A stretch of 26,274 nucleotides of DNA, taken from a virus. The position numbers and the translations under genes are program-made. Below are positions 19,752-22,224 of this stretch, one piece after another (position 1 is the first letter of the stretch; every line of letters starts with the position of its first letter). The stretch is taken from positions 1-26,274 of the IMG/VR virus record IMGVR_UViG_3300008448_000540, one strand, 5' to 3'. Under the pieces are notes generated by a model, which did no database searches, was not told the DNA's origin, and saw nothing but the letters and a program-made list of their open reading frames with translations.

Positions 19752-20648
19752 ATGATCGACCTAAGAAAAAAAGATAGCATGATTTCAGCAATTGAGGAAA
19801 TTCTTCAACAAGAAGCACTCAAGGGCAATCAACATTTAATTGATAAAAATAAAAACAACAAAGTTGATCCAGAAGATTTCAAGATTCTTCGTGGTGAAAA
19901 GAAAGCTGTCAAAGAAGAAGAAACTGTTGATGAGGGCATCAAAGATGTTGCCAAGAAAGCATTTAAAGCTTTGACTGGTGGTTCAGATGAAGATCAACGC
20001 AAAGACCTACAACGCAAGATGGGTCTACCACAAACTGGTAAGAAACCAGAACCACAAAAAGAAGAAGTTGTTGATGAAAGTCTACTAGGTCAATTAAGAG
20101 ATCGTGGTAATGTTGCAACAGGTCAAAAACAACAAGACCGTAAGAATTTTGATACAAATACTGGTGCCGCATTAAAACCAAATAGCACAATTAGTGGTAT
20201 TAGAGCTAAGATGCAAAACAAAGTCCAAGAGGAATCTGAACAAATTGATGAGTTGTCCAAAAGCACTCTAGGTTCTTATGTTAAAAAAGCAGCTGCTGAC
20301 TCCACAATTTCTCGTAAAATTGGAGCTGATTTTGAAAATCGTGCATCCAAGGCAAGAAGCCCTAGTATGAAAGATGCAAATACTTCACTTGCTGATAAGT
20401 TTAAATCCGATTCACGCAAACGCAAAGTTAATATTGACAAGGCAGTTGATCGTTTGGCCAAAGAAGAGGTTGATATTAGAACACCAAAAACTCTGCGCCA
20501 ATTCAAAGAAGGCTGGGAAGAAATGATGGCCGATGTTAAGAAGCGTGCAGAACCAAAACCAAATGGTGGTTCAGGTGTTAAACAAGGTTCTCGTTACGGT
20601 GGTTCTAAACAAAAAGACACACCAGAACAGGACACAGAAAAAAAGTAA
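19752..20648 (+). CDS. Late phage protein with EF-hand-like loop, ending on a frameshift signal
   Basis: 298 residues from ATG 19752, which has AGGAG (19741-19745) 6 bases upstream; earlier in-frame starts lie inside the previous gene. Near residues 33-44 it has DKNKNNKVDPED, which fits the calcium-binding loop of EF-hand/dockerin domains (D1, N3, N5, D9, D12). Further on, IDELSKSTLGSYVKKAA is a motif I recall as recurrent in marine T4-like phages. The protein is very rich in Lys, Glu and Gln, with several acidic cut-like sites (VDEG, VDES, IDEL), so a head-interior or scaffold role is plausible but not shown. Its stop codon directly follows A AAA AAG. The C-terminus is probably extended by a -1 frameshift, or the base count is off by one. 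Confidence 0.75.
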   Translation: MIDLRKKDSMISAIEEILQQEALKGNQHLIDKNKNNKVDPEDFKILRGEKKAVKEEETVDEGIKDVAKKAFKALTGGSDEDQRKDLQRKMGLPQTGKKPEPQKEEVVDESLLGQLRDRGNVATGQKQQDRKNFDTNTGAALKPNSTISGIRAKMQNKVQEESEQIDELSKSTLGSYVKKAAADSTISRKIGADFENRASKARSPSMKDANTSLADKFKSDSRKRKVNIDKAVDRLAKEEVDIRTPKTLRQFKEGWEEMMADVKKRAEPKPNGGSGVKQGSRYGGSKQKDTPEQDTEKK

Positions 20649-20690
20649 ATGAGGCAAAAGGACCAACCAGTCAGGAAGACGGACCTTTTG
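20639..20690 (+). promoter_or_regulatory. Candidate -1 ribosomal frameshift signal
   Basis: A AAA AAG (20639-20645) lies in exactly the X XXY YYZ phase of the 19752 frame and is followed at once by TAA. This is the slippery heptamer of E. coli dnaX. Nine bases after it a hairpin can form: CAAAAGG (20655-20661) with CCTTTTG (20684-20690), an A-A mismatch, two further G-C pairs and a 16-base loop. An AGGA (20629-20632) a few bases upstream could act as the stimulatory Shine-Dalgarno-like element known from dnaX. Confidence 0.6.
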
Positions 20691-20809
20691 TCTCTAACAT
20701 CAATGATGCAGAAGATTTGAAGCCATTAAATCACGCAAGATACTTGGCCAAAAAATCTTTGAAAAGAGTTAAGAACGAAATGATGGGTAAAACAGGTACA
20801 TCAGAATAA
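20645..20809 (+). CDS. -1 frame extension of the 19752 gene (54 codons)
   Basis: After a -1 slip on A AAA AAG, reading continues from GTA 20645 for 54 codons to TAA 20807-20809, for a full product of about 352 residues. The segment begins VNEAKGPTSQEDGPFVSN and has a basic helical end (LNHARYLAKKSLKRVKNEMM). It looks like normal phage protein and fills the gap up to the next gene at 20818. There is no start codon with a ribosome binding site in this frame, so it is not a separate gene. One missing A in the seven-A run, either a real mutation or a read error, would give the same picture. Confidence 0.55.
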   Translation, partial: VNEAKGPTSQEDGPFVSNINDAEDLKPLNHARYLAKKSLKRVKNEMMGKTGTSE

Positions 20810-20817
20810 GGTAAAAA

Positions 20818-22224
20818 ATGAGCAAAGCGCAAACAATAAAATCAATAGTCAAGGGCACCGCAGATAAGCCAACTTTCGGTACCAATCCTAGAGATCCGTG
20901 GTCCGCAAAAGCAAACATTGCGGAAGATGCTGCTTTAAACACATACCTAAAATCTAGGGGTATCAATCCAGAATTTGCAACAAAAGATCAGAAGGTTGCA
21001 CACTCTAAGACAGGACAATTCATCAAGTGGAAAAGAGACCACATGTTGGAATCTATAACTGAAGCAATCGACAAGATGGATGTTGTTATGTTTGATATTC
21101 CATTGTTGATTCGTATGTTGGAGTATGCTCGTGAAGATGCAAAGACTGATATGGATTTGCACAAGGTTGTTGAGAAGTTAATACACATTCGTAAAAAAGG
21201 TGTGTTGACTATGAAAGACTATACCTTTGTGACAAGGCTAAGAGAAAGCCTTGAACTTGATGAAAATCATGTTGCGATTGCAATGGGTCAAATGATGGAT
21301 GATGAAGGTAGTATGGTTCTAAATCAGTTGGATCAGATGGAACGTGCCGTGAAGATGGTTCGTGATTTCATTGGTACCGATTATGAGAAACAACTACCTG
21401 CATGGGTTCAGTCTAAATTGACATTGGCATCAGACTACATTGATACTGTTGGTAACTATCTAAACAGTAAAAATGAAGATGTTAATGAGGCTGCATCTGC
21501 TTCTATTCGTATGTACAAGGCTTTACAACAAGCCAAAGAGAAACGTGAGCGTGAAGAACGCCTAGGTAACGAACTGTTGAACAAGAAACCACCAGAACAA
21601 AAGCCTGTGCAAAAAGAAGAAGTAAAAGATGAGTATGCTCGTAAGGTTGACAAATATTTAAAAAAGAAGTATGCACCGGAACAAAAGCCTGTGCAAAAAG
21701 AAGAAGTTGTGTCTGAAGTTGCACCTCCTGGTTTTGAAGGTACTGTCAAAGCAATGAAGAAACACAAAGACATTGATAATCCTTGGGCTCTAGCATGGTC
21801 TATGAAGAACAAAGGTTACAAGTCACACAAGAAGGCTGATGGTACACCAAAGAATGAAAACTATCAAGACCCAATGGCCGCAACATCTATGCCTAATGAC
21901 GGTGCAAACAGTCCAGATGATGTTGCACCAAAGGATAAAAATAAGAAACTGATTCAAATGTCTAAGTCTGCTCGAATTATCAAGTCCATCTATAAAAGAA
22001 AGGGCATGAAAGAGGAGATTTATGACCATGAAAAGGAAGATAAACCTGCTGCAAGTTATGGTAAGAAACCAAAGATTCAAAGAGCAACAGACAATTCCAA
22101 TATGGAAAAACCACAGGCCGCTGCAATTATGACGGGTGGCACCACCTTGACTGGTGAAAAAAGAGATACCATCGAAATCGACCCTATGATGAAGATGCGT
22201 AAACCTGATTCTGGAAAAAGATAA
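20818..22224 (+). CDS. Large late phage protein, probable virion/head protein
   Basis: 468 residues, no enzymatic motif seen. The N-terminal half is helical, with LPAWVQSKLTLASDYIDTVG (about 196-215), a segment I recall as conserved in marine T4-like phages. Residues about 255-305 are a Lys/Glu-rich linker that contains PEQKPVQKEEV twice. Then comes PGFEGTVKAMKKHKDIDNPW (about 302-321) followed by ALAWSMKNKGYKSHKK, another motif common in these phages. The C-terminal 120 residues are polar and low in complexity. No capsid-targeting-like start is present, but internal L-x-E/I-x-E sites such as LESITEAI occur. Position among late genes suggests a virion component. The start is followed closely after the frameshift extension ends. 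Confidence 0.75.
   Translation: MSKAQTIKSIVKGTADKPTFGTNPRDPWSAKANIAEDAALNTYLKSRGINPEFATKDQKVAHSKTGQFIKWKRDHMLESITEAIDKMDVVMFDIPLLIRMLEYAREDAKTDMDLHKVVEKLIHIRKKGVLTMKDYTFVTRLRESLELDENHVAIAMGQMMDDEGSMVLNQLDQMERAVKMVRDFIGTDYEKQLPAWVQSKLTLASDYIDTVGNYLNSKNEDVNEAASASIRMYKALQQAKEKREREERLGNELLNKKPPEQKPVQKEEVKDEYARKVDKYLKKKYAPEQKPVQKEEVVSEVAPPGFEGTVKAMKKHKDIDNPWALAWSMKNKGYKSHKKADGTPKNENYQDPMAATSMPNDGANSPDDVAPKDKNKKLIQMSKSARIIKSIYKRKGMKEEIYDHEKEDKPAASYGKKPKIQRATDNSNMEKPQAAAIMTGGTTLTGEKRDTIEIDPMMKMRKPDSGKR
21595..21707 (+). repeat. Two 29-base direct repeats (period 84 bases) within the 20818 gene
   Basis: Positions 21595-21623 and 21679-21707 are identical over 29 bases. The 84-base spacing is 28 codons, so the frame is kept and the peptide EQKPVQKEEV is repeated. 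It looks like an internal duplication in a charged linker, not a mobile element or CRISPR. Confidence 0.85.

Follow-up and report, generated by a model that had tools for sequence, protein, structure and literature searches.

The window, by which we mean the whole stretch of DNA analysed here, is an IMG/VR virus record of 26,274 bases that encodes a T4-type DNA polymerase ~50% identical to cyanophage enzymes; judged by its sequence, the source is an uncultured T4-like phage. Its sole tRNA found is a tRNA-Gly (tcc) gene at positions 550-622. The gene under study, here called the body, is preceded by a cytidylyltransferase-like gene and followed by a short open stretch in the -1 frame, the tail, and then by a gene that provides a synteny anchor (Table 1).

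Little can be learned about the body from known families. It has a weak match to phrog_5709, a family without assigned function, a Pfam search returned zero matches, and neither the Pfam nor the PHROG search gave an informative family match. The GenBank phage collection holds no relatives of the tail and only weak module matches to the body, and no tail homologues were found in GTDB genome contigs; no cultured relative is close, and the cultured phages Cr30 and P-TIM68 carry distant, unannotated module-bearing proteins close to a cytidylyltransferase gene. A literature search, with most subscription papers outside its coverage, found no report of the gene or of frameshifting within it. The body and its homologues are built of shuffled repeated modules and differ widely in length even between close relatives, and the homologues of the downstream gene are likewise mosaic. 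Body and tail together are a fast-evolving modular protein.

Table 1. Features at the body-tail joint of the window, and the split gene on a longer A run in related loci
Feature	Position	Strand	Remarks
Body (frame-0 gene)	19752..20648	+	298 aa; modular, Lys/Glu-rich; C-terminus E-K-K-stop
Shine-Dalgarno-like AGGA	20629..20632	+	possible upstream stimulator; 30/31 distinct sequences
Slippery heptamer A_AAA_AAG, frame 0	20639..20645	+	G-A7-G-TAA in 51/51 contigs
Frame-0 stop TAA	20646..20648	+	directly 3' of heptamer
Tail (-1 frame)	20645..20809	+	54 codons + stop; fused in frame in distant relatives
Stem-loop	20651..20694	+	11 bp + A.A mismatch + 2 bp; spacer to heptamer 5 nt
AAGG	20808-20811	+	overlaps tail stop; upstream of 20818 gene
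Downstream gene	20818..22224	+	synteny anchor; homologue follows, where readable, whether the tail is split, fused or separate
Split gene on A9	L300:3171-4168; L307 joint at about 3947		stop TAG

The slip site and its stimulatory signals

Positions 20638-20648 read AAAAAAAGTAA, in codons GAA AAA AAG TAA, which agrees with the original prediction that the heptamer lies exactly in phase and that the stop is the next codon. We searched 2.9 million IMG/VR contigs with a junction pattern in which the bases after the A run were fixed and any run of at least three A was allowed, and obtained 51 contigs from 46 metagenome samples. (A looser pattern, AAAAAAGTAAMTGARGC, gave mostly unrelated contigs among the matches listed, and the longer pattern was used instead.) Every junction-bearing contig has exactly seven A, with G on either side and then TAA, and a long body frame wherever the contig allows; no run of six or eight A occurs among the 51. 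The original prediction had looked to homologues for a conserved heptamer and two-frame layout, and all 51 close relatives keep the heptamer, the stop and the -1 tail, while the eight-A alternative it named is carried by 0/51 assemblies. It had also set such a conserved layout against a single fused frame; the split layout does hold in close relatives, but the fused frame is present as well, in different, more distant clades. The window and related loci supplied 979 distinct gene ends for comparison; of these, A_AAA_AAG plus stop closes genes of this family only (21), and this restriction, together with the seven A in all 51 contigs, places the signal beyond chance.

The -1 frame was predicted to be open for 54 codons, to lack a start of its own and to end 8 bases before the next gene, and all of this agrees with the sequence, with the next ATG at 20818; the predicted product sizes of 298 and 352 residues likewise match the reading frames. 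Across the 51 contigs the tail is 49-54 codons long where complete, and none offers this frame a start codon further upstream, or an ATG, GTG or TTG before tail codon 25. The tail is predicted to have an extended N-terminal part and a basic C-terminal helix at tail residues 25-51, modelled by AlphaFold as one helix at a modest-confidence pLDDT of 72.

Changes counted by parsimony on 25 distinct sequences reveal how selection acts on this region. Synonymous changes are scarce over the signal, with 0.50 per codon across tail codons 1-16 and 0.60 across the five codons that close the body. Outside it they are far more frequent: 2.74 per codon for tail codons 17-39, 2.17-2.71 for more upstream parts of the body and 2.02 for the downstream gene (permutation P 0.00025 for the depletion over the signal). 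Heptamer, spacer and stem-loop lie where this depletion is seen. In tail codons 17-39 non-synonymous changes reach just 0.74 per codon against the synonymous value given above, the pattern expected if the -1 frame is translated as protein, and both body and tail frames are under purifying selection across diverse sequences. At one locus, L049, the second half of the tail has strongly diverged and the signal is identical.

The stem has the form GAGGCAAAAGG-A-CC ... GG-A-CCTTTTGTCTC, in which the pairing of GAGGCAAAAGG with CCTTTTGTCTC includes one G-U and two further C-G pairs lie past the mismatch. A hairpin had been predicted here with 7+2 bp, starting 9 bases downstream; it is present, but it has 11+2 pairs and starts 5 nt after the heptamer. 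Its energy of -18.8 kcal/mol (z -4.46) was equalled in 0/200 shuffles, and the stem-loop recurs in all distinct main-clade sequences folded, at -18.4 to -27.7 with one weakened at -12.5, whereas at the same place in fused-frame relatives it is absent or much weaker, about -3 to -14 kcal/mol. Covariation is uninformative because 11/14 stem pairs are invariant; compensatory double changes number 0. The variants comprise A-U to G-U, one broken pair (L043) and a change of GGA to GGT that turns the mismatch into A-U and lengthens the stem, with energies of -26 to -28 (L019, L044), and all except one keep or add pairs. When the same peptide was randomly recoded with synonymous codons, an equally good fold arose in 13% of trials and 13 pairs in 9%, so the peptide itself accounts for part of the stem, and the case for it rests on conservation, not energy. 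The AGGA upstream of the heptamer falls inside the distance range of 6-17 nt used for Shine-Dalgarno-like elements by Sharma et al. 2014 (PMC4066793); the heptamer itself is among the most efficient in E. coli (same study).

Fused, separate and longer-run forms of the tail

A search with the tail yielded 61 loci. In about 66 distinct loci from more remote relatives, the tail and a body of the same modular family form one continuous reading frame, and wherever these contigs reach far enough to be read, a homologue of the 20818 gene comes next. L088 has the joint of the window without the A run, fused in frame (SKQKDKPEQDTDKKVNESKRPE; SKQKDKPEQDTDKK-VNESKRPE), and L099 is likewise a direct fused counterpart. 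Seven loci (L060, L099, L287, L288, L292, L294, L301) share a fused joint of the form GAT/GCT/AAT-A9-GTA; a slip in these A9 genes, whichever its direction, runs into a stop after no more than a few codons and would leave the product untailed. In three loci a small gene of its own, with an ATG that overlaps the stop codon of the body, encodes the tail (ATAAATGA; L080:7206-7385, L104:6846-7028, L119:6503-6682), and the products of these genes begin MK(S/T)FKEFKS. In-frame fusion to the same family in distant relatives, together with the separate-gene forms, identifies the tail on comparative grounds as a genuine C-terminal part of the body protein. From these relatives, the split state looks derived and the fused single frame ancestral.

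Splits of the same kind occur on longer A runs. L300 and L307, about 88-92% identical in aligned pieces of DNA, read CTA AAA AAA AAG TAG (A9) and continue into a -1 tail; there the tail stop overlaps the ATG of the next gene. In a single contig, L112:5437-6560, the joint reads GAA AAA AAA AAG TAA (A10), again with a -1 tail, and the last body module differs. With their longer runs, L300 and L112 have no strong stem-loop. A quick tree of the downstream gene, itself a mosaic, groups L112 with the fused L115 at a branch support of 100, which suggests that the L112 split arose independently or was acquired by recombination. Runs of nine A support efficient transcriptional slippage in bacteria (review PMC5009743), and such slippage is therefore plausible at L300 and L112. 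We entertain as a tentative and rather doubtful idea that the body-tail joint of this gene family of aquatic phages is a repeatedly evolved frame switch, in which A7 would serve ribosomal -1 slipping, the longer runs of L300/L307 (A9) and L112 (A10) would slip in another way, possibly through RNA polymerase, and the fused A9 genes would undergo a truncating slip.

A proposed frameshift and its rivals

We propose that the window gene is very probably expressed through a -1 programmed ribosomal frameshift of the dnaX/IS911 type. The sequence features by which that type is recognised are found here: an X_XXY_YYZ heptamer in phase, a stem-loop downstream at a 5-nt spacer, a Shine-Dalgarno-like element 6-17 nt upstream, and a conserved -1 frame with reduced synonymous variation over the signal. 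The reading first put forward from the window alone thus gains support from comparison, through the conserved heptamer, stop and -1 tail (51/51), the hairpin and the synonymous suppression. Ribosomes paused by the stem-loop and the AGGA would shift back by one base with tRNA-Lys bound at AAA/AAG; the slipped fraction would yield the 352-residue body plus tail, and the rest would yield the 298-residue body ending at TAA. The Lys-tRNA set of a host affects slipping on AAG. Frameshifted ribosomes would reach a stop adjoining the 20818 start, making coupling to the downstream gene possible. How might such a signal arise? The relatives point to one fused ancestral frame in which the run of Lys codons at the joint then changed: if the fused joint had A9, a run differing by a single base would put AAG TAA in frame and form A_AAA_AAG at once, and the stem-loop may have come under selection after the slip site arose.

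The same two products could be made if RNA polymerase added an A within the A7 run, leaving a fraction of the mRNAs with a single frame. One extra A would indeed restore the fused frame, and the related splits on A9 (L300, L307) and A10 (L112) have slip-prone lengths (PMC5009743), L300 and L112 lacking a strong stem-loop. In the window clade, however, the run is seven A flanked by G in all 51 contigs, high slippage having been described for nine (PMC5009743), and synonymous constraint on an exact stem-loop, an AGGA and a 5-nt spacer is not something that transcriptional slippage alone would require. Because the A7 run is fixed and the stem-loop and AGGA are conserved, we prefer ribosomal slipping in the window clade and consider slippage by the polymerase unlikely there. 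A constraint that covers a strong stem-loop might also reflect a transcription or RNA-processing element, over which the -1 frame would be incidental; yet no terminator or sigma-70 promoter pattern was found when looked for, the tail past the stem-loop evolves as protein, and tail homologues are fused to the same gene family, leaving this explanation very improbable.

Two further explanations are hardly credible. The fused tails of distant relatives would fit a true or ancestral gene with eight A and one frame, from which the window departs by sequencing error, pseudogene decay or recent deletion, but A7 stands in all 51 independent assemblies from 46 samples, purifying selection acts in both frames, and conservation is higher in the signal than around it; the independence of these assemblies and the synonymous suppression over the signal exclude a read error or a recent deletion. 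The separate tail genes of L080, L104 and L119, whose ATG overlaps the body stop, would in turn be matched in the window if the tail were made as its own polypeptide by re-initiation after TAA. In the window clade, however, the first 24 codons of the tail contain no ATG, GTG or TTG in any contig, the ATG that directly follows TAA does not lie in the tail frame and is lost where AAT is ACT, and the most conserved part of the tail precedes any start.

Relation to known systems and biological meaning

Programmed ribosomal frameshifting, the reading we favour, would align this gene with several known systems. Like E. coli dnaX (tau/gamma), it has A_AAA_AAG, a Shine-Dalgarno-like element upstream, a stem-loop a few nt downstream and, as predicted here, products sharing an N-terminus, but slipping shortens the dnaX protein, whereas here it would extend the product past a stop adjoining the heptamer. 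Transposases of IS911 and the IS3 family combine A_AAA_AAG with a Shine-Dalgarno element and a stem-loop or pseudoknot and use the -1 ORF as a C-terminal extension; in contrast, the present case is a phage gene with a tail of only 49-54 codons and no transposase. The extensions of phage T7/T3 gene 10, and other C-terminal extensions of coat and tail proteins, arise by frameshifting in some phages, and others encode them in a different way (review PMC5009743). This family resembles them as a phage gene whose C-terminal extension would be reached by frameshift in some phages and is otherwise encoded in others, but the body cannot be recognised as a coat or tail protein, our searches giving no match to a major coat protein such as the gene 10 body, and the extension is predicted to be a short basic helix rather than an Ig-like domain. 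The lambda G/GT tail assembly chaperones also involve a -1 shift late in a phage gene that yields a fusion, as predicted here; unlike theirs, the neighbours are cytidylyltransferase-like (the gene preceding the body) and unassigned, not recognisable tail-tube or tape-measure genes, and neither body nor tail matches a chaperone family.

As to the role of the protein, most tails start with a [VIL]-x-E|[AGS]-like motif similar to the cleavage site of T4 gp21, which is L/I-x-E (PMC9026906). The motif occurs 207 times in the family against a shuffled expectation of 102, a count taken over related rows and accompanied by enrichment in the neighbouring gene. Our guess, held with low confidence, is that the protein may belong to the prohead core or lie inside the virion, its tail starting at a gp21-like site.

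The frameshifting trick is already known; the example is new and, on sequence evidence, unusually well supported by relatives in which both parts are fused, and it would extend the list of programmed frameshifts in phages by a well-conserved case from uncultured T4-like phages. Automatic annotation would truncate the window gene at the frame-0 stop. Related phages carry one and the same protein in fused, split and separate-gene form, so that the origin of frameshift signals, here perhaps a change in a Lys-codon run that created stop and slip site together, becomes directly testable, as does the question of whether the ratio of products matters. If the joint has indeed been a recurrent frame switch, the ratio of tailed to untailed protein would itself be selected, and would be set by different molecular means in each lineage.
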